Source: Candidatus Mycoplasma haematobovis (GTDB lineage Bacteria > Bacillota_I > Bacilli_A > Mycoplasmatales > Mycoplasmoidaceae). Taken from it: 64,000 bases of DNA. This document shows, one piece after another, positions 831-55,704 of the stretch (positions are counted from its first letter, which is position 1; each line of letters starts with the position of its first letter). The position numbers and the translations under genes were made by a program. The notes beneath the pieces are model-generated. The model worked only from the letters and a program-made list of their open reading frames with translations, was not told the DNA's origin and ran no database searches. The DNA lies in contig NZ_LWUJ01000010.1 of the NCBI RefSeq assembly GCF_001645765.1, forward strand, positions 186,001 to 250,000. Direction: 5' to 3'.

Positions 831-1949
831 TTGCAACTTGAACATTCTTTATTAAATAACGATCTTTTATTAACTCAAAGAAATTACAGTTTTTTAAAGA
901 AGATATTACTTGCTTCTTTATTACTATTAGTTTTCTTTCTATTCTTTTGAGTTAACATAACTCTCATTCTCAAGAAACAACAAATAAGTTTAAGTGAAAT
1001 AATAACTGTAATATTCTTTAATAGACTAAGAAAAAATGAAAATACTAATGGTGAGGATGAACTAAGAAGTGTTCTCTCTGTCCCTGCCGTCCAAAGAGCT
1101 ATCTGAATATGCTCTGCTTCAGCTGTAGCAGCAGTTGCTTTCGTAATATGTGGTTCTGCAATACAATCACTAACTCAAAATCCCCTAGCAGATGCTACTA
1201 CTCTAGGCTTCATTGATGCCACTATATTTGGTATCATATGTATGAAAGGTATATTTGCAGAAAGAATAGATGCTTCTTATTACCAACTATGCTATTTCAT
1301 ATTTGCTTTACTAGGAGGCTTAATAACTCTTACATTAATAAGTATCCTATTTAAGAAACCACAACATAAGAATCAACATCTCCAAATCATATTCATAGGA
1401 CTAGTTATGAATATGATGTTCAAGACTCTTTCTTACTTAATTAAAACCTCAAATGCTAATGCAGTTAATCCTGCATTCAAATTAGCTATAGGAGGAGCAG
1501 AAAATATACATGATCTATACAATAATCAATTTGGCTTCTTACAATGAACAGCAATCTCCATCTTTATTCTTTTCTTATTAACTTGAGCTTGCTCTAATAA
1601 ATTCAATTTATTTGAACTAGGAGAAGAGCAAGCTAAAACATTTGGAGTAAATGTAAAGCTATTTAAATACTTTGCTTACAGTTTAGCTTTAATAACTACT
1701 ACTATTGCTGTTACTTTAGTAGGTAATATAGCTTTCGTAGGTTTAATATCTACGCACATAATAAGACATCTATTTAGAACTAGAAAATATCAAATAATTG
1801 TTCCTTATGCTTCTGTATTAGCTATCTTTCTTCTATTAACAGGTATTCTTCTAAATGCTATTCTTCCTTTTGTATTCTCCTCTATCTTTATTCTTTGCTT
1901 AGGAGGAATCATTTTGTTATTCTTAACCTTTAATAACAAAGAACTTTAA
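831..1949 (+). CDS. FecCD-family ABC importer permease 1
   Basis: Reading TGA as Trp, this encodes about 372 residues. It is a polytopic membrane protein of the BtuC/FecCD family, which imports iron complexes, haem or cobalamin. The family hallmark appears as SAIQSLTQNPLADATTLGFI near residues 110-130, matching the usual 'RNPLADPxxLG' region. A later segment GNIAFVGLISTHIIRHL matches the conserved 'G.I.FVGL..PH..R' motif. No ATG lies upstream; TTG at 831 follows an in-frame TAA and precedes a hydrophobic segment. The stop overlaps the next start as TAATG. It heads a four-gene operon. The substrate cannot be told from sequence, and no binding protein is seen nearby. Confidence 0.82.
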
Positions 1950-2962
1950 TGCAACTATTTAATGAACATAAAAAAGATGACTTAAGTAAAGTAATTGCAT
2001 TATTAATAATATGCACTACTATTTCTTTTGCAATGATCTCCATTTTTGAATGGAGATATGACTTCTCTGGAAATATTGGAACAATAAGAATATGACAATT
2101 CTTATTAGCTTTCTTTAGTGGGGGTGCCTTAGGAGTCTCAGGTTTATTACTTCAAAAATTAACAAGAAATAACTTAGCAGATATCTCAATATTAGGAATA
2201 GGCTCTTTAAACCTAATATTCATAATTATCTTTATTATTTGTAAATATGATGGAACTACTGATAGCTCAGCTGTTTTAAGAGTTTATTTACCTCTAATAT
2301 CTATTGCTTCCTCTATATTAGGAACTTCCATAATTTACACACTATCAAAAAACAAATCAGATAGCTGTGAAAAGTTCACTATCATTGGAATAGCACTTCA
2401 ATTTGTTTTTGAAGCTATTTCAGTAACATTAACTAATACAAAATTAATTAATGATGCTAGCGATAAAGCAAAAATTAATGCTGAAATACAGAACTTTACT
2501 TATGGTAGATTTCCTGATGTAAGTAAGCTTTCTCAAAACATACTATGAAGAGGCATGACTATTGCCTTCGTAATAGCTATTATTTTCATAACTTGTATTA
2601 TCTATTTTTTCAGAAGAGAAATAGATTTACTAGAGCTAAATGAAGAACTTGCTAAATTCTACGGAGTAAATGTTAAAGTCCTTAAAGGCTTCCTTTATTT
2701 TTGTATTTCTTTATTAGTAGGAATAGAATCTGCTATGATAGGTAGTGTTGCCTTACTAGGAATAGTATCAGCTAGTTTTACTAGACTTATTTTTGGTAAT
2801 AGATCAGAAATAGGCATAATAGTATCATTCTTAGTAGGAGGGATGCTAGTTACGCTAGCATCTTTCATATCTGTAAACTTAAATAAGAATGTACCAATAG
2901 GTTTTCTTTCTACTTCTCTTATTTCCCCTGTATTCATTTATTTACTCTTCAAAAGAAATTAG
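1949..2962 (+). CDS. FecCD-family ABC importer permease 2
   Basis: About 337 residues with several hydrophobic segments. GGALGVSGLLLQKLTRNNLA near residues 55-75 matches the family signature 'GaaLavsG...Q...rNpLA'. VALLGIVSASFTRLIFG later matches the 'G.I.FvGL..PH..R' region in a degraded form: the His is missing. ATG at 1949 overlaps the TAA of permease 1, which argues for translational coupling and for the two forming a heterodimeric channel. One or more TGA codons are read as Trp. Its stop TAG shares its last base with the GTG start of the following ATPase. Confidence 0.8.
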
Positions 2963-4461
2963 TGCTTGTATACATTAAAAAAAATAGGTCTCTTTTTCTA
3001 TTAGCTCTATTTACTTTCCTCCAAATATTCTTTCTTTGAGCTTTATTTATTAGCTACTTAAGAAATTATGCTGCTTACACTTACATGTACACTGATCAGT
3101 TTAAAGATGAGCAATATTCTTATTGGAAATATTTATCTAAAGCAGGAAAGGCTATGGATGTACAAAAGAACATAGGAAGATATCAAAACTTTAATGATGA
3201 AAAGATCCCAATCTTCTTAAAGGCCTTTTTTGAAAAAGAGGGTTTATCTCCCACTTTAGCTAAACACTTCTTCTGATTTAACTTACATCTCCAACTCTCT
3301 ATCCTTTATTTATCCCTGATTGCTTTCTTTAATATAGCAGGCATATTCATCTTCTTTAACTCTTTAAGAAAATACTTACTAATAGGAAAAACCTTTAATT
3401 TTTATAAATTATTCTTAGTTACTTGTTTAAACCTATGAGGCTTTTGAATATGTAAAGAATGAGAGCATTCTCTCACAGAAAGAAAAGATCCTTTACTACA
3501 TACTAAGTGCTCTTTCTTAGTTAACTCTAAATTATGAAAAAGATTCTGAAAACTTAAGAAAAAATCAAATCCTTTTAGATTTAACAAACCTCAGGATTTA
3601 ATAGTAGTAGAAAAGCTGTGCTTTTCTCCAGAACTAAAACATAGCTATTTCAAACACCTTAAAGACTATCTCTTATTCTTTAAACAAGATAGAGAAATTA
3701 ATGAAAAGACTCACATCTACCCTAAAAAATCCCTCTGACATAAACCATACAAATACATCCTAAAAAATATTAATTTAACTATTAAACGTGGCTCTTTCAA
3801 TGTAATAATAGGATGTAATGGTTCAGGAAAAACTACTCTTATTAAATCCTTAATTAACTTAAATGAAAATATAACAGGAAGAGTATTATGGAATGGTTTA
3901 GATATTACAAAAATAAATAAAAATGTATTTGCTAGGAATGTATCTTACATTCCTCAATTCTTAAATATATATCAATCACTTAAAGTAATAGACTTCTTAA
4001 CTTTTGCTAGATATCCCTACAAAGATAAGAATGAATATGCTATTCTTAAAGCTATTCAAGAAAGTGAATGTGTAGAATTTGCTGATAAAAATTTAGATTC
4101 ACTTTCTGGAGGCCAAAAACAGAAAATACTATTAGCAAGCATACTAGTACAAGAAGCAGATACCATAATACTAGACGAACCCACTTCCTTCTTAGATATT
4201 AAGAATCAACATATCTTTCTTGAATCATTAAAGAAATTGAACTCAGAAGGCAAAACCATAATCATGATTCTTCATGACTTACAACAAGCTATTAATTATG
4301 CTAATAATTTAATAGTTATGAAAGAAGGAGAAGTTTATGCTTCTGGTACACCAAATGAAGTAATAACAGAAGAATTATTAAGAGATGTATTTAATATAGG
4401 CTGTACACTATACAAAAACAATACAGAATTAGAGATACAAGACATATATGCCATATCTTAA
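2962..4461 (+). CDS. ABC importer ATPase with N-terminal membrane region (FepC-like)
   Basis: About 499 residues. The first ~110 residues hold hydrophobic segments (FLLALFTFLQIFFLWALF, ILYLSLIAFFNIAGIFIFF). A basic linker follows, and then an ABC ATPase domain: Walker A GCNGSGKTT, signature LSGGQKQ, Walker B TIILDEP, H-loop ILHD. The domain most resembles ATPases of iron-siderophore/B12 importers. The GTG start overlaps the permease-2 stop. FepC-type subunits are usually ~260 residues and soluble, so the membrane-anchored N-terminal half is unusual. Two or more in-frame TGA codons are Trp. Confidence 0.8.
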
Positions 4462-5854
4462 AGAAATCTTTCTATATTCTTTAGGATATTACACTTCTTT
4501 AAAGAAACTACTAAGAATATTATTTTGAATGCACATAGTAATATGTGCATTATGACTCTTGTTACTACTTAATTTTATTTGTATTAAAGTAATTGGTTCT
4601 TCTCTTTCTTCTCACAATAAATTCTCAGCAGTAAAGCACTTTGATGTTTGATCTAATAATTATGAATTCTTCTTAAGAGATACTAGTGTAAAGCAAAGCT
4701 CTATACTAACGTTCGCCTTCTATGTTTTCTTTGTCAAATTATTCTTATTAAATATATTGGCTCTATTAATATGTGCTCCTCTTAAATTTGCACTAGCTTG
4801 CTCTATAGATATGCAAGAAACTAATTTAAAGAATAAGAGTCAAATATTCTTAGATGTAGCACTTAATCCTTTCTTTCCTATTATTGCTTACAATACTCTA
4901 AATAATAAAAATATTATTCATTATCAAAGAGAAAGAACTTTTTCTTTGGCTAAAGTAATGAATGAATATTTAGAATTTAAGTCTTTTCCTGAAATTAATA
5001 GTGAAGAATTAATAAATGTAAAAGATTTATCCTTTATTTACCATGGGGATAATAGTTGAGATAAATATTTACACTTATTCTTAAAGAAATTTTTTCCTAC
5101 TCTTTACAGAAAACACTTACTCTCTAAGAATTATTACAAATCTCATGGCAAAAAAGAACTATACAACTTACCTGCTTTAAAGAATATTAATTTAACTATT
5201 AAAGCTTCTAAATTTACTACTATATTAGGCTGTAATGGTTCTAGTAAGACTACATTCCTAAAAACTATTATTAATTTATTTGAAAAATATACTGGAAATA
5301 TACTTTGAATCTCTCAAGATTTAAAGAAAATATCTAATAGGTCATTCTATAAGAATGTATCCTATATAGCTCAAAATACAATAATACATAGTAATATCTC
5401 TGTATATGATTTTGTTGCTTGTGGTTTATTCCCCTCCCTTTCTTTTTTCCAAATGAATTATCCCCAAGATCATCCTTTAGTACTAGAGAACTTAAAAAAA
5501 ATAGGAATACTTGAATTTAAGGACAAGAGTCTTAATACTCTTTCTGGCGGGGAAAAACAAAAAGCTATTATTGCTAGAGCTCTTACACAAAAAACTAAAA
5601 TAATAATATTAGATGAGCCTACAACTTACTTAGATATTAGTAATCAATATTTAATACTTAATATATTAAAAAAGCTTCAAAAAGAAGAGAATAAAACCAT
5701 AATAGCTATTCTTCATGATTTAAAGCAAGCAAAGCAGTTCTCAGATGAAGTAATAATATTAGATAATGGTGAGGTATTTGCTTATGGAAAAACAGAAAAA
5801 GTAATGACTAAAGAGAATATTAATAAAGTATTTGGAATTAATAATCTATTCTAA
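4448..5854 (+). CDS. Second ABC importer ATPase with N-terminal membrane region and altered Walker A
   Basis: About 468 residues, starting at an ATG that overlaps the previous gene by 14 bp. The N-terminal part has hydrophobic stretches (LLLLLNFICIKVIG, FAFYVFFVKLFLLNILALLI); an ATPase domain follows. Walker A reads GCNGSSKTT, so the glycine just before the catalytic lysine is serine (codon 5243-5245). The signature LSGGEKQ, Walker B IIILDEP and ILHD are intact. It is paralogous to the upstream ATPase, and the pair may form an asymmetric heterodimer with one weakened site. The 3' end overlaps convergent rplA by 17 bp. Confidence 0.78.
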
Positions 5855-8389: not shown

Positions 8390-9403
<1,014 letters not shown>

Positions 9404-10417
9404 TTAAAGAGTAACAAAATGAGTAAGTGTTCTTACTAATTGATTTACGTAGGAAGACTCATTATCATATCAAGTATAAAGTTTCACTTCTCCTGTTGGA
9501 AGTACTTTAGTTAGTAAAGAGTCAAAAATAGATCCGGCAGTGTGAGAAATAATATCTGCTGAAACTATTGGATCTGTACAATAGCAAAGTGTTTCTGAAG
9601 CAGCTTCTTCAACAGCTTTATTAATCTCTTCAGCTGTAGCAGGTTTTTCTAATTTAAGAGTCATATCTACTAGAGAACCAGTAATAGTTGGAACTCTGTG
9701 AGCAACACCATCCATTTTTCCTAGTAATTCAGGAATAACTTTACCAATAGCTGCTGCTGCACCAGTTGATGTAGGAATAATAGAAAAACCAGCTGCTCTT
9801 GCTCTTCTTAAATCAGAGTGAGGTGAGTCTTGTAATCTTTGATCTGCAGTGTAAGCGTGAATAGTTGTCATGAAACCAGAAGCAACACCAAATTTTTTGT
9901 GAACCGCATTAACTACAGGAGCTAATGCATTGGTTGTACAAGAAGCCGCTGAAATAACTTTGTCATCTCCACTAAGAACTTGGTGGTTAACATTGTAAAC
10001 AATTGTCTTTAGATCTCCTTTAGCGGGAGCAGAGATAACTACTTTTTTAGCGCCTGCTTCAATGTGAGCCATAGCGGCATCTTTATCAGTAAAACGTCCT
10101 GTGCATTCAAGAACACAATCAACATTTAAAGATGCTCAAGGAAGAGCTTTAGGATCCCTTTCAGAAATAACTTTAAAGGAACGTTTCTCATTTTTGCAAT
10201 GACTATATAAAACTATTGAATCTCCTTCAACACTAACTTCATAACAACAAAGTTTGGTAATAGCTCCGTGGGCTGTATCATATTTAAGAAGGTGCGCTAA
10301 AGTTTTTGGATCTGTTAAATCATTAATTGCGACAATGTTAATATCTTTATTAGACAGTAACTCTCTGAAAGCTAATCTACCAATTCTTCCAAATCCGTTG
10401 ATTGCAATATTTTTCAT
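9404..10417 (-). CDS. gap: Glyceraldehyde-3-phosphate dehydrogenase, copy 2 (promoter-proximal)
   Basis: 337 residues with the same N-terminal dinucleotide-binding motif, catalytic Cys and C-terminus as copy 1. The variable block reads [20 protein letters not shown] and carries two extra residues. Start ATG at 10417 is preceded by a TATAAT at 10430-10435. The near-identity of the flanks suggests a recent tandem duplication or continuing gene conversion. The patch lies in the region after 'KYDTAHG', on the NAD-binding domain rather than at the active-site Cys. Confidence 0.96.
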
Positions 10418-10471: not shown

Positions 10472-11458
10472 TTAAAGACAATCAGAGAGTTTGAAATCTC
10501 TTATCACATCAAAGAAATAATTTATTTCTTCAATAGTATTTTGAGCATTTAAAGAAGCTCTAAATATTTCTTTAGGATCATATCTTTCCGCAGACAGCCA
10601 AGAACAAGATAGTCCTGATCTAACTAATACTTCTTTCTTAGCTAAATAAAATACATAATCATGGGCTGTTATTTCTTTCTTAACTCTTATTAAGAATATA
10701 CATCCTTTAGTATCTTTATTTAGTAACTCTAAATATTCATTATTAGGAAAATTAGTAATAAAGTACTTATTTAATTCGCTCTCTTGCTTAGCTCAAGCAG
10801 AAGAAGTTAAATTAGCGACAATAGTGGGAAGCGCTTCATTTCAAGCATACAAAGCACATCAGTCTAAGTCATAATTTTCTTTATCTCAAATCATTCCTTC
10901 TCTAGCATAAATAACTCCTAATCCATTAGGACCAAAACATTTATGTGCTGAGAAGAATAAGAAGTCAGCTCTCTTACTCCTAATTACCTTATGTTGTATA
11001 TATTGAGAAATATCAAGAATAAGAATATGTGGAGTATCTTTAAATTTCTCCTCTATTTTTTCTAAAGAGTGCTCTAATCCATCTAAATTAGTCATTAAAG
11101 AGAGAGAGAATATAGACCTTTCTTTGGGTAGCTCTAACTTTAATAAGTCTTGGTAGTTAAAGTAATTAATAGAGCTATAAAGGCTTAATCAAATAGCATG
11201 ATTAGAAGAATGTTCTGAAGTACTTAAATATACACCTAGCTCTTTTGGTAAATAATGAGCTATCTCATTAGCTGCATAAGTAGCATTAGGTACTAAGTAA
11301 TAATTCTCTGGCTTACCTCCTAAGAATTTAGTTAATAATATTAAAGTTTCTTTCTTTAACTCTCTAGGATTTAGTTCTTTGGATAAAGCTTCGCAATATG
11401 CCTCTACTAATTCTTTAGATCTTAAAGAAGTAGCTGCATTATCAAAATAAACAATAAT
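10472..11458 (-). CDS. sufS: Cysteine desulfurase (SufS/IscS-type)
   Basis: About 328 residues with TGA as Trp. PLP-enzyme marks are VYFDNAAT at the very N-terminus, the lysine motif FFSAHKCFGPNGLGV (Schiff-base Lys), and RSGLSCSW near the C-terminus carrying the persulfide Cys. It moves sulfur from cysteine to the SufU scaffold encoded at 13311-13706. No ATG, GTG or TTG lies between the in-frame TAA at 11462-11464 and the conserved DNAAT. The only sensible starts are ATT codons at 11458 or 11455, the first overlapping the rpmG stop. The N-terminus is shorter than in most SufS proteins. Confidence 0.85.
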
Positions 11459-12312: not shown

Positions 12313-12448
12313 CTATTCTATATCTTAGTAAAAATAAGTTTTATAAGGCAAAGAAGTATTCACGTACTACCAACAGTAAATTATATTGGAACTATTGTAA
12401 AATAAATTTATTATAAATAGGGATATATTTCTTATTAGGAATAGGTTT

Positions 12449-13321
12449 TCATTCCCTGCTCCTAATTAACTTAATTTCATGTTTGTAGGGAGAGATTAAT
12501 TTACCCTTCTCTCTCCAATAAGGAGTTTCAACAATTATTGGTAATTTCCTGAATAAGGGCTCATATGCCCATTCCATTAATATCTCAAAACCTATATGAC
12601 CATAATCTAAATTAGCATGTCTATCTTTGCCAGAGCCTCTAACATTCATAGAGTCTCCTAAATGTACTACTTTAATTCTCTCTAATCCTATTAATTCATC
12701 AAACTTCTTTAAGAATTCATCTTTCTTAGATAAGTCATATCCAGCATCGTGTAAATGTACAGTATCTAAGCATACTGCTAATTTAGGATGATTATCACAT
12801 CCCTTTATTATTTTTGCTATTTCCTCTAATGTCTTGCCTATTTGATTCTTCTTTCCTGCCATAGTCTCTAAACATATAAAGACATTAGTATCTTTACATT
12901 CTTTCAATACTAATTTAAGATTTTCTATTAATAACTCTATACCTTCATCTAAAGTATTCCCTACATGGTATCCTGGATGTAATACTATATAGGGAATACC
13001 CATAGCGCCTGTTCTCTTTACTTCTTCACTTAAGAAAGAAATAGTAAAGTCTTTATTTTCTGAATTAGTATTAGCTGGATTAATTATGTAAGGAGCATGT
13101 ACTACACAATTAGAGAAATCTATTCCATGTTCTTTTCCTAACTTCTGAGCTTCCTCTAAATAAAGCTCAGAAATAGCCACTCTTCTCTTATTCTGGGGCG
13201 GTCCTGTAAAGATCATAAAAACATCAGCACCATTATGTATAGTCTCTTCAACTACTCCCAATAAATACTTGGAAGGTCTATTTAAAGAGATATGCGAACC
13301 TAATAATAACTTAGGATTCAT
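12449..13321 (-). CDS. nfo: Endonuclease IV (AP endonuclease)
   Basis: 290 residues, about the family length. It cleaves DNA 5' of abasic sites in base excision repair, using a trinuclear zinc site. Visible motifs are the N-terminal LLLGSHISL, FTGPPQNKRR, CLETMAGKKNQIGKTLEE, CLDTVHLHDAGYD, VVHLGDSMNVRGSGKDRHAN and the end LPIIVETPYW. The usual 'LDTCH' reads LDTVH here, with the metal His kept. The start lies 11 bp inside the sufU 3' end, so the two are probably co-transcribed. Confidence 0.95.
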   Translation of the reverse strand: MNPKLLLGSHISLNRPSKYLLGVVEETIHNGADVFMIFTGPPQNKRRVAISELYLEEAQKLGKEHGIDFSNCVVHAPYIINPANTNSENKDFTISFLSEEVKRTGAMGIPYIVLHPGYHVGNTLDEGIELLIENLKLVLKECKDTNVFICLETMAGKKNQIGKTLEEIAKIIKGCDNHPKLAVCLDTVHLHDAGYDLSKKDEFLKKFDELIGLERIKVVHLGDSMNVRGSGKDRHANLDYGHIGFEILMEWAYEPLFRKLPIIVETPYWREKGKLISPYKHEIKLIRSRE

Positions 13322-13706
13322 TAAGAATCTTTAACATTAAATCACAACCTAGCAATAAACAAGCATGTCTTGAAGAATATTTAGAAAACTTCTTAAATTC
13401 CAATAGTTTTTCACTAAGTACTTTTGGAATTTGCTTTCCTAAAATCATATTTTTAAATCCTTTAAGAATTGCATTAGCTTCTTCAACAGTCTTATTCTCT
13501 ATCTCTTCCATTAACACATTAATAGAAGCTCTAGAAAGAATACATCCATTATGCGAGAACTTTAAATTACTTACTATATTTGAATCTTTAGAGAAAGTAA
13601 TACTACATCAGTCATCACAAGCACTAGTGCTTATTCTTACAGGCTTATCCTCTTTGGATATATATCTACTTACTTTAGAGAATTTAAAAATTTCAGATCT
13701 ACCCAC
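13311..13706 (-). CDS. sufU: Fe-S cluster scaffold / sulfurtransferase SufU
   Basis: 131 residues with TGA as Trp. The three conserved cysteines of the SufU family appear as SACDDWCS (family 'CGD'), SHNGCILSRASI (family 'G.GCaiS.AS') and SSRHACLLLGCD (family 'R..Ca.L'). It receives sulfur from SufS (10472-11458) with zinc at the active site in known homologues. The GTG at 13706 directly follows an in-frame TAA and an AAGGAAGG sequence. An internal ATG at 13517 would lose two of the three cysteines, so the GTG start is preferred. It overlaps the upstream gene by 8 bp. Confidence 0.85.
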
Positions 13707-14172
13707 CCTTCCTTAATAAACAAATCGAATAATTGTTTTCTCTCGCGCATTTGAATAAATGTATCTCTATATTTCATACAATAGTTTGAAATAATTTTTG
13801 TAATTTAACAAAGAGAACAATTAATCATGAAAAAGAAATAAATACTCATAGTTGCTTGAAAATTCAAGAAAAAAATTCTACTAGTTTCCTTTTGCTTAAA
13901 TTTAAATAAAACTTATGAGTGCCATAATCTTTCTTAGCATCTAATCCAAGAACACCAAAAACATTTCTAGGATTTAAACTCTTAACTAATCTATCACAAG
14001 TACTGGTTGAAAGATTTAAATTACGTTTAAATATTTTTGAAAAGAAAAAGAGAAAACAAACAAATACTACTAATGCTAAAGTATTTCAGAATGAATCAGA
14101 TAAAATTGCTTCTTTTAAAAAAAGAAAGTTTACTCTCCTAAAGCTGAAAGAACCATTATTTTTTAATACCAA
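13699..14172 (-). CDS. Small membrane protein with a PTS EIIB-like region
   Basis: 157 residues with several TGA codons as Trp; under the standard code it is chopped up. One hydrophobic segment (TLALVVFVCFLFFFSKIF) near residues 30-50 is followed by DRLVKSLNPRNVFGVLGLDA and YGTHKFYLNLSKRKLVEFF. This resembles the 'lv.alGG..NI..ldaC.tRLR..v.d' of sugar PTS EIIB domains, but the phosphorylated Cys is absent. A second hydrophobic stretch (VFISFSWLIVLFVKL) follows. Similar orphan EIIB-like membrane proteins occur in mycoplasmas (the M. genitalium MG129 type, from memory). TTG start directly after TAG; the end overlaps sufU. The function assignment is weak. Confidence 0.6.
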
Positions 14173-14451
14173 CTAACCTGTAAAAATTCTATACAAAAGT
14201 AATTAATAATTTCAAATATTTTTTCTTAATGACTTTAATTTAAACAATAATTTTTTATTTTTGTTTACTTAAAAAGAGGTAAATGATTGGCTATTAATGG
14301 TTAGGTAAATTGTTTTCCTATCTTATTATTTATCAAAAAATATCTTCCTAATTAATTATAAGAATTTCTTGAACCAAAATACACCCACCAAGATAGTAAA
14401 ATCAAACGACCTCTTCACTCTTTTTAGAATCAAGAGATTTGCTTAACCTGT
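14173..14451. other. Non-coding stretch, no gene seen
   Basis: About 280 bp of AT-rich sequence between the EIIB-like gene and the Cys-rich gene. No open frame on either strand survives with TGA as Trp and a credible start. An AAAAAGAGGT at ~14270 and an ACCTCTTCACTCTTTTT at ~14408 are loosely complementary, but too far apart to call a terminator. Confidence 0.5.
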
Positions 14452-14607
14452 TTACTTACAGCAGTGTCCGCAAGGAGTGGTACAAGAAGAACACTTACAC
14501 ATGCAAGACTTAGAGCTATGACAACAACAAGTGCATGAAACGACGGTACAAGAACCACAAGAGCAATTACACTTATGACAATTACAGGAACAACTGGAAC
14601 AATTCAT
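14452..14607 (-). CDS. Metallothionein-like Cys-rich protein, 51 residues with 19 Cys
   Basis: ATG at 14607 to TAA at 14452-14454 encodes a 51-residue protein beginning MNCSSCSCNCHKCNCSCGSC and ending SCTTPCGHCCK. It has 19 cysteines (37%) and 3 histidines, mostly as CxC and CxxC with one CCC run; aromatic residues are absent. This composition is that of metallothioneins, which chelate Zn, Cu or Cd in thiolate clusters; no specific known family is recognised. A TATAAT lies 22 bp upstream on the same strand, and a GGGA at roughly -14 could be a weak ribosome site. The opposite-strand frame (14535-14759) gives a low-complexity product and is judged a shadow. The role (metal storage, detoxification or secreted thiol peptide) is inferred only. 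Confidence 0.72.
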   Translation of the reverse strand: MNCSSCSCNCHKCNCSCGSCTVVSCTCCCHSSKSCMCKCSSCTTPCGHCCK

Positions 14608-14628: not shown

Positions 14629-14634
14629 ATTATA
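14629..14634 (-). promoter_or_regulatory. Putative -10 box of the Cys-rich gene
   Basis: TATAAT on the minus strand, 22 bp upstream of the ATG at 14607 and preceded by TTTTTGAA. It fits the -10-dominated promoters of mollicutes and supports the Cys-rich frame as an independently expressed gene. Confidence 0.4.
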
Positions 14635-14771: not shown

Positions 14772-15197
14772 TTAAGATGTTATTTTCGAGAAAGCGCAAA
14801 TTTCCTCTTTATTTAACTCTTGTTTATATTTGGCAATTAAAGATTGTTCATCATCTTGTCTTTCACATCACTGCACTAATGATGCTACAGGCATACCCTC
14901 ATCGTCCATAAAACGTCCATCATCTCCAATAGAAAAAACTACTGCCGTTCCTGATCTTCCATCAATAATTCTTGCTAACTCTTGAGTGGCCGTTGCATCA
15001 TTCTTATATTTAGCAAATAATTTTTCTAATATTCTAAGCCCATTGCTTCTTTGTCTCTCTTTAGCGACCATATTTTGTTTTCCAATATTAACCTGCTCCT
15101 CCTTTTGAGAAGGCCAAGTTGCAAAAATCGTTCCTGCCGCAGTTACGCCAGTTAAAGCCAGTCCTATTAGGGACTTTACAATAGTAGAATTATTCAT
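14772..15197 (-). CDS. Small secreted or membrane-anchored haemoplasma-type paralogue A
   Basis: 141 residues with one TGA as Trp. The N-terminus MNNSTIVKSLIGLALTGVTA continues into a hydrophobic stretch, giving a signal or anchor typical of the large families of short paralogues in haemoplasmas. The body is charged and ends near SLIAKYKQELNKEEICAFSK. The stop of this family's neighbour (15199-15201) is 2 bp upstream of its start, so the two are co-transcribed. No enzymatic motif is seen; the function is unknown, with a surface location inferred. Confidence 0.7.
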
Positions 15198-15198
15198 T

Positions 15199-15549
15199 CT
15201 AGGTTTTACAACCTTCTTGTCTTACTTTTGTAAACTCACTATCCTTAGGTTCAGCTTCACACCACTCCTTAAATTTTTTGCTTAACTCAAGCTCCTCAAT
15301 ACTTCTATTACTTTCCGAATACTTTTTCTTTCAACTAGTTCATTCATTAAATAAACCATTATCACTTCCAATTGCTCTTACCTTTCCATAAAAAGGTCTC
15401 CAATTTTTATTGAACCAATCTAAATTGCGTCTTTTTCAAGAATCCAAAGAATCTGAATTAAAATCTAAATTGTTCCATCCATAATAACTTCCTGCTACAG
15501 TAATGCCAGTTATTGCCAATCCTATTAAAGATTTTGCTATATTATTCAA
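15199..15549 (-). CDS. Small secreted or membrane-anchored haemoplasma-type paralogue B
   Basis: 116 residues with several TGA codons as Trp, so it is invisible under the standard code. TTG start; the N-terminus LNNIAKSLIGLAITGITVAG closely parallels that of paralogue A. The body is rich in Trp, Ser and charge (RNLDWFNKNWRPFYGK), with Cys near the C-terminus (KEWCEAEP, RQEGCKT). The WC motif and terminal Cys recall the wider haemoplasma paralogue families and the poly-G family further along. The function is unknown. Confidence 0.65.
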
Positions 15550-15720: not shown

Positions 15721-16014
15721 TTACAAATCATCCAACTCCTCCTTTGTCATTTTTTTACCATATCTATATTGTTTATCTCTAAAGAAATATCTCTTTAATT
15801 TACGAAAATCTATTCTGTCTTCTAAAGCAGTATTAATTTCATTCTGCAATAGTCTTACTTTAATCTCTAATTCTTGCATATAGAAAGCACAAGTCTTTAA
15901 TTCCTCTTTAGTTAATTTAGCTCTTAATTCTGGCAAATGTAATTTCTGTAATAGCTCTCATCACTCTTTAGTTTTCTCAAAAATTATTCTTTCGTAGCTC
16001 TTAGGTCCAAACAT
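15721..16014 (-). CDS. Hypothetical helical protein, 97 residues
   Basis: ATG at 16014, two consecutive TGA codons as Trp, and a product starting MFGPKSYERIIFEKTKEWWE with long charged helices (TKEELKTCAFYMQELEIKVR). It has no signal peptide or membrane segment, so it is probably cytoplasmic. An internal ATG at 15936 would remove the first 26 residues. It is divergently transcribed from the C39 exporter, with 37 bp between starts. No family is recognised. Confidence 0.6.
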
Positions 16015-16051: not shown

Positions 16052-18034
16052 ATGAAAGTTTATCCACAAAATAATGAAAATGATTGTGGAATTTCAGTTA
16101 CTCAATCACTAATAAAGCATTATTACGGTAAAGAAATATCAAGAGAAGAATTATGTAGTAAATCTAATTTAACTGAAGAAGGATTATCTATTCTTGATTT
16201 AGAGATGCTAAATCAAGAATATGGTATTCAATTAACTGCATATGAAATGGATTATGAAGAATTTACTAATTATTTAACTAATGATTACTTCTTATTACTA
16301 ATAAAGTCTGGACATTTAAATCACTATGCAATAGCTAAGAAAAATAAGAAAGAAGTAATTATTTTTGATTCTGCTAAAGGTAAATTAAAGCTTAAGTATG
16401 AAAGCTTTAAAGAATACTACTTAAATATATTCATTACTATTGAAGCTAATGGAAAAAAGAATAAATTAATAGCTCAAATACAGAAAGAAGAGAACTTTCA
16501 TGACTATGAAAAAACAGCCATAAGTGCTTTTCTTAATATTGCTATCTTTTCTTTAACTTTAATTATCTCTTTTGCTACTAAATATAGTATTAATCATATA
16601 GTTAATAACTATCCTTTAATTAAGCTGGGCGGAATAGGCTTAATACTAATAGCTAGTTATGCAATAGTTAATTTTGGAGAATACTTACAAAAACAAATAA
16701 ATCTTAATCATATTAATTACTATTCAAAATCGCTCTTTCAAAGCTTAATTAATGCTTTCAAAAATAAGAAGAATTCTTTTTTTCAAAAAGCAGGAAAAGA
16801 TCAATTCTTATTAATACAAAAACATATAGAGAATATTGCTACTTACCATACAGAACAATTAAATCAATGAATAATTAGCTTAGTAATATTAATAACTCTA
16901 TCTATATTCCTTACTTCTCTACACCACTATTTCTTATTAATAATTTTTATTTCTTTCGTTATTCAAGCTTTCTATTTATGAATAATGAAAGAAGAACATA
17001 AATACAACTTTCCAAAATTAATTGAAGCACAGAATACCAATAAGAGAAATAACTTTGAATTAGAGGAATTCCTAAAGAATGAAATTAATTTAGTTAAATT
17101 AAGTGCAATCTGTCATCAATTTAAAGAAAGCTGATTTAAAGAGATAACTCTTAATAAATCAATTACTCTAAGACAAGCTTTTTTTGAAAAAATAAATACA
17201 TTCTTTAATAACTTAATTCAATTAACACTCTATTTCTTATTGGCTTATTTCTTCTTTACTAATACACTAGACTTTAGTTACTTTGTAGTAATTAATGTAT
17301 TCTATGCACACATTAATAAATCCTTTAATAACTTAGTTAATTATTATTTCTTTAGATATCCTTACCAATATTCAAAAAAAATATATTTAAACTTATTAAA
17401 TACAGATACTGTTGAAGAAACAGAAGAATGAAAACTACCTAATAGTATTCAAATTAATAAACTAAATTATTATTCTTCTTCTAAAAATATCTTTAATAAC
17501 TTAACTCTATCTCTATTACCTAATACTTTTTTATTTGGCTCTTCTGGTATAGGCAAAACTACTCTCTATAAATTAATTAGTAATAAGCTACCTATACAGG
17601 GCAATCAAATTAATTTTGATAATGGTATTAGTATTAATAAGAAAGAGTTTTCTGAGAATGTAATTTATCAATCAAGTAATAGTTGATTAGGTGAAATAAA
17701 TATAGCTAAATCTATTCGATCTTTAACAGCTAGAGATAAAGCAAAAATATTAGGCATATGTAAAGATATGAAGTTAGATGAGAATATTAAAGTTGAAGGT
17801 TTAAGTGCTGGACAAAAACAATTACTCAATTTATTAAATCTAATTCCTTTCAAAAACAAAATAATTCTTCTTGATGAAGCTATTTCTCATATTAATTACA
17901 TATCTAAAGAAAAGATACTAAAGAGTATCTTTCCCATAATAATGAAACGTAATTTTGTAGTATGTAGTGAACATTGCCAAGAACTAAAGAAATACTTTAA
18001 GAACTTTATTAATTTGAATGAATTACTCCAATAA
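16052..18034 (+). CDS. C39-peptidase ABC exporter (bacteriocin/peptide transporter type)
   Basis: 660 residues with TGA as Trp. Residues 1-130 form a C39 cysteine peptidase: YPQNNENDCGISVTQ holds the QxxxxDCG catalytic Cys, NHYAIAKK the His, and IFDSAKGK the Asp. A transmembrane region of about five or six helices follows, then an ATPase with Walker A FGSSGIGKTT, signature LSAGQKQ, Walker B IILLDEA and a SEH switch. Such proteins cleave a double-glycine leader and export the peptide. No obvious GG-leader substrate is nearby, although the next gene overlaps this one. The full C39-TM-ATPase layout is kept but is shorter than the usual ~720 residues. Confidence 0.88.

Positions 18035-18374: not shown

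Positions 18375-21387
<3,013 letters not shown>

Positions 21388-52839: not shown

Positions 52840-55704
<2,865 letters not shown>

Follow-up and report, generated by a model that had tools for sequence, protein, structure and literature searches.

A small cysteine-rich gene of haemoplasmas that probably encodes a metallothionein-like protein

The window analysed here, a 64,000-nucleotide stretch of the 'Candidatus Mycoplasma haematobovis' genome, carries on its minus strand (14607-14452) a short Cys-rich ORF that is a real gene under purifying selection. We consider it likely to be transcribed on its own and to encode a small metallothionein-like Zn/Cu chelator of the cytosol, which would act as a metal buffer and sink; its cytosolic location, its capacity to bind metal, the metal concerned and its protective role are all features that we infer from the sequence. 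Translation yields MNCSSCSCNCHKCNCSCGSCTVVSCTCCCHSSKSCMCKCSSCTTPCGHCCK, with an ATG start, a TAA stop and no TGA codon, bearing out the original prediction of a 51-residue minus-strand product containing 19 Cys and 3 His. CxC, CxxC and CCC spacings are all present, Phe, Tyr and Trp are absent, and there is no signal peptide or membrane stretch. The gene and its flanking signals are as follows:

14452 to 14607, minus strand: the gene itself, Cys-rich and metallothionein-like, its 51 aa including 19 Cys and 3 His, supported by conserved orthologues and chance tests
14629 to 14634, minus strand: perfect -10 box TATAAT, 27 to 22 nt before the ATG
14399 to 14449, minus strand: terminator-like 3′ hairpin directly after the stop, 51 nt, -18.4 kcal/mol, z = -4.05

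A chance ORF is ruled out by codon composition, by simulated sequences and by scans of other haemoplasma genomes. Cys accounts for 1.0% of codons in the long ORFs of the window, and the binomial probability of at least 19 Cys among 51 residues is 6e-25. In simulated DNA matched for trinucleotides (40 x 64 kb), the highest Cys content among 10,214 ORFs of at least 40 aa was 16.7%, as opposed to 37% in the window peptide, and on both counts the earlier argument that such a run of Cys codons is not expected by chance in AT-rich DNA holds. The orthologue in M. haemocanis (G001, 860 kb scanned) was the sole ORF of 5,510 to exceed 16.2% Cys, and the positional counterpart in M. suis (740 kb scanned) was the only one exceeding 19%. 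Two poly-Cys ORFs on the plus strand of the window (20387-20482 and 53432-53572) arise opposite CAA/CAG (poly-Gln) repeats; such antisense shadows are a trap when hunting for Cys-rich genes.

A search of the genus recovered one orthologue each in M. haemocanis and M. haemofelis, at the same chromosomal place and with 70% identity, and thus homologues that keep the cysteines, the test by which the gene was to stand or fall, are present in both other genomes. Every one of the 18 aligned Cys is kept, along with two His, C3 of the window peptide being peculiar to the window species; non-Cys positions are identical at 16 of 31 sites between the window species and M. haemofelis. Up to seven Cys codons have been swapped between TGT and TGC from one genus member to another. 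The dN/dS ratio is about 0.13 between M. haemofelis and M. haemocanis and about 0.14 between the window species and M. haemocanis; between the window species and M. haemofelis, synonymous sites are saturated.

These comparisons also bear on the question of whether the Cys frame could be a mere shadow of a Gln-rich peptide encoded opposite. In the three genus members, antisense frame +1 is free of stops; its third codon positions coincide with those of the sense frame, and it has parallels in the antisense shadows that do occur elsewhere in the window. Codon-position statistics alone cannot distinguish the strands, because TGY reversed is CAR and the third positions coincide, and for M. haemofelis and M. 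haemocanis taken alone the strands are inseparable (pN/pS 0.163 vs 0.164). However, an antisense frame opens automatically if the sense protein has no Tyr, and in M. suis it is broken at a Tyr codon, whereas the sense frame runs uninterrupted over its 103 aa. Identity is 33/46 in the sense and 27/45 in the antisense frame, pN/pS across species is 0.29-0.36 for the sense frame as compared with 0.39-0.51 for the best antisense frame, and the conserved ATG and TATAAT both lie on the sense side. On these grounds we rejected the poly-Gln shadow, which we find hardly credible; conservation of the opposite-strand frame, seen beforehand as a threat to the gene, did not materialize as one, the sense frame being the better conserved.

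Going beyond the original prediction and beyond the genus, a Cys/His-rich ORF (50-103 aa, 25-37% Cys) occupies this place in each of the ten haemoplasma genomes, one per species, representing both main clades: the haemofelis clade (the window species, M. haemocanis and M. haemofelis) and the suis clade (M. suis, M. wenyonii, 'Ca. M. haemolamae', 'Ca. M. haemominutum', M. parvum, M. ovis and G012). The seven suis-clade counterparts are 52-103 aa long, with 15-33 Cys and 5-10 His, often in runs, an abundance of His which suits metal coordination; some of them contain one or few aromatic residues besides His, such as the one Tyr in M. suis. Across the two clades, richness in Cys is all that persists: Cys positions are not kept, alignment is meaningless beyond Cys, and a joint profile built from the ten sequences recovers only six of them. 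Because the sequence profile fails, the family can be followed across clades only by position and composition, and it is their position that suggests kinship of the Cys-rich genes. Scanned twice with the genus sequences, a set of 84,980 species yielded no relatives outside the genus. As regards the marks of the metallothionein class, the family combines small size with very high Cys content in CxC, CxxC and CC motifs, its Cys positions are under selection within the genus, and aromatic residues other than His are few or absent.

The -10 box originally placed 22 bp upstream was found as a perfect TATAAT (14634-14629, minus strand), and the same hexamer lies 14-32 nt before the ATG in nine of the ten haemoplasma Cys-rich genes. 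A 3′ hairpin accompanies seven of the ten, the window gene included, with z from -2.6 to -3.9 in 'Ca. M. haemominutum', M. ovis, M. parvum, M. suis and M. wenyonii and z of -1.3 in G012; folding of the M. haemocanis and 'Ca. M. haemolamae' genes revealed none. A strict promoter/terminator scan added nothing, and it misses the hairpin of the window gene because no clear T-run follows. Transcription is likely to start from the gene's own promoter-like box and to give a short, monocistronic mRNA whose leader is also short. An operon with the SufU-like gene is disfavoured by the 3′ hairpins and by a second TATAAT downstream in M. haemocanis and M. haemofelis. Overall, the conserved cysteines, purifying selection, the place shared by ten genomes, the promoter-like box and the hairpin lend strong support to a genuine Cys-rich metallothionein-like gene in haemoplasmas, as had been proposed.

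In the window, the surroundings of the gene comprise the following features:

16052 to 18034, plus strand: divergent C39-peptidase ABC exporter, constant neighbour in 10 of 10 haemoplasmas
15721 to 16014, minus strand: small ORF, 97 aa, in the interval that separates exporter and Cys-rich gene, kept in the haemofelis clade only
14772 to 15549, minus strand: two ORFs of 141 and 116 aa, hydrophobic near the N terminus, in the same interval, in this species only
13699 to 14172, minus strand: ORF of 157 aa downstream of the Cys-rich gene, with weak conservation among genus members (26-31% identity)
13311 to 13706, minus strand: SufU-like Fe-S sulfur-transfer protein, next conserved neighbour, in 9 of 10 haemoplasmas
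12392 to 13321, minus strand: endonuclease IV (Nfo), conserved neighbour

The order exporter, Cys-rich gene, SufU-like gene, endonuclease IV is found in nine of the ten genomes; in 'Ca. M. haemolamae' (G006) only the exporter remains as a neighbour, and SufU and Nfo are no longer near. The Cys-rich ORF and the exporter are divergent and adjoining in all seven suis-clade genomes, and in the exporter tree the two haemoplasma clades stand well apart. Such constancy could mean that the peptide is cargo of the C39 ABC exporter, secreted, disulfide-rich and acting extracellularly: the two genes are neighbours in 10/10 genomes, the gap being under 100 bp in all but one of the seven suis-clade genomes, their adjacency persists in 'Ca. 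M. haemolamae' despite the displacement of SufU and Nfo, the C39 catalytic residues are intact (Cys12, His91 and Asp106 all conserved), and the peptides of this family evolve fast. We nevertheless regard this as quite unlikely, since none of the ten peptides has a double-glycine-type (GG/GA/GS) or hydrophobic leader, Cys beginning at residue 3-5. Moreover, the exporter is present in 82 of 95 family genomes, while among the twenty loci read the Cys-rich neighbour accompanies it in haemoplasmas only, no such gene directly adjoining it at the non-haemoplasma loci (L048-L060), and other neighbours of the region also hold their order.

The SufU-like gene, as the next conserved neighbour in 9/10 genomes, with SufS near in most, invites the alternative that the peptide is a thiol or sulfur store, a redox buffer or a haem binder tied to SufU/SufS, and not a metal buffer. 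In E. coli, zinc overload poisons IscU-type proteins (PMC6495748), so that a link to SufU could run through metal too; by analogy, zinc sensitivity of the SufU-type neighbour is a possible reason for the gene neighbourhood. We give the sulfur, redox or haem role little chance, as in most species the gene has its own TATAAT and a 3′ hairpin before SufU, arguing against an obvious operon, abundant His is ill-suited to a sulfur store, and a haem (CP) motif common to the family is absent. Both this alternative and that of an exported cargo appear weaker than a cytosolic metallothionein.

Several other observations concern the same region and its counterparts. In the SufU-like proteins of the window (13311-13706) and of loci L044 and L045, three Cys are invariant, and the Asp of the CxD motif is replaced by His or another residue in M. 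parvum and M. suis. The SufS-like cysteine desulfurase of the window (10472-11095, minus strand) is 207 aa long vs 320 aa in sister genomes, and its gene appears to be truncated or interrupted in the 5′ part. Two near-identical adjacent GAPDH genes occupy 8390-9403 and 9404-10417 (minus strand), where sister genomes have one. About 9 kb from the Cys-rich gene, an importer locus of the iron, haem or cobalamin type (831-5854, plus strand) consists of a FecCD-type permease pair and two fused-looking ATPases with an extra N-terminal membrane part. In M. suis (G010), an ORF of 119 aa with abundant Cys, Tyr, Gly and Pro lies between the Cys-rich gene and SufU (L045:7130-7489, minus strand) and has no family match, and elsewhere in this genome three tandem paralogous ORFs of 95-106 aa (L146:11154-12089, minus strand), each with 18 Cys, have a hydrophobic segment at the N terminus, a run of Gly and a tail that is rich in Cys and resembles a metallothionein; they are perhaps membrane-anchored metal binders. 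Genome G073, which the exporter tree places as sister to the haemoplasmas, contains a 63-aa Cys-rich ORF (VNKKCCDTCTCANCTC...; L059:3808-3996, plus strand) about 5 kb from its C39 exporter; a Shine-Dalgarno sequence and a TATAAT accompany it, a strong hairpin (-24.8 kcal/mol) lies at its 3′ side, and a convincing relative of this ORF is absent among 298 genomes of the order.

As the metal buffer that we favour, the peptide would take its fold from several bound Zn(II) or Cu(I) ions, with its 18-19 Cys thiolates and 2-3 His as ligands; the 18 conserved Cys and two conserved His would give it a capacity of perhaps five to seven divalent ions. It would serve a red-cell parasite as a metal buffer or sink, and incidentally as a thiol scavenger, with sequestration taking the place of efflux pumps. 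A search covering the CDF (PF01545) and P1B heavy-metal ATPase (TIGR01525) classes detected neither in any of the ten haemoplasmas, while both models matched in 14/14 control genomes; it is because these pumps went undetected that sequestration may replace efflux. Some findings count against a metal buffer: in M. genitalium neither pump class has a match above the cut-off, yet its C39 locus is without such a Cys-rich gene, no metal-sensing regulator site was identified, and the peptide resembles no known metallothionein family in sequence. An extended scenario would have a mollicute-specific metallothionein family, present at one ancestral locus in every haemoplasma examined, retain nothing but its richness in Cys and His as the sequence changes freely, with the C39 exporter expelling metal-loaded or spent peptide in place of efflux pumps; we hold it to be unlikely.

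Haemoplasmas cause anaemia in animals and are unculturable, and for the majority of their genes a function has yet to be assigned. In those of their genomes that are legible in the table of PMC3958358, 56-80% of CDSs are hypothetical. Retention of a predicted metal-sequestering protein through genome reduction in 10/10 species would imply that metal stress (Zn, Cu or iron/haem) is constant on red cells, and the Cys-rich gene offers a small, easily tested protein. The open-access literature searched does not join metallothionein with hemotropic mycoplasma, the haemoplasma genome papers searched do not contain the word, and open-access papers pairing metallothionein with mollicutes deal, to judge by titles and abstracts, with hosts or other topics; an earlier report of a metallothionein-like protein in wall-less bacteria, as the predicted product would be, was not found in this literature.

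Comparison of the ten Cys-rich proteins with Pfam yielded no match, nor did comparison of the nine tested with NCBIfam, and a PDB sequence search found nothing. At E<=10 the haemoplasma family was unmatched by PF02069 and PF00131, although the positive controls SmtA and MT-2A matched their respective models at 4.5e-21 and 5.6e-23; the claim of divergence from SmtA-type sequences was therefore right, with the reservation that lack of a profile match is weak evidence because MymT is also unmatched in Pfam. The window peptide is similar to vertebrate metallothionein (PF00131, human MT-2A) in its size of about 50-60 aa, its 18-20 Cys, its CxC, CxxC and CC motifs and its lack of Phe, Tyr and Trp, but differs in Cys spacing, in the presence of His and in the CCC motif. 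Homology to MT-2A is undetectable by BLASTP (E = 49) as well as by PF00131, and a horizontal gift from vertebrate metallothionein was rejected for lack of similarity. The bacterial SmtA/BmtA proteins (PF02069; Pseudomonas PmtA/PsdMT) are comparable as small bacterial Cys/His proteins. Pseudomonas metallothioneins are also His-rich, and PflQ2 MT holds its metals by nine Cys and one His (PMC7387436), whereas members of the haemoplasma family carry 15-33 Cys. Peptides with a double-glycine leader that are exported by C39 systems resemble the family in that the gene adjoins a C39 ABC exporter, but the haemoplasma peptide has neither the leader nor a double-glycine cleavage site. MymT, the copper metallothionein of mycobacteria, is likewise a small Cys-rich bacterial protein from a pathogen, but it has far fewer Cys and no sequence similarity by eye. 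Compared with these systems, the haemoplasma protein would most likely function like a metallothionein, yet stand outside the metallothionein families described so far.
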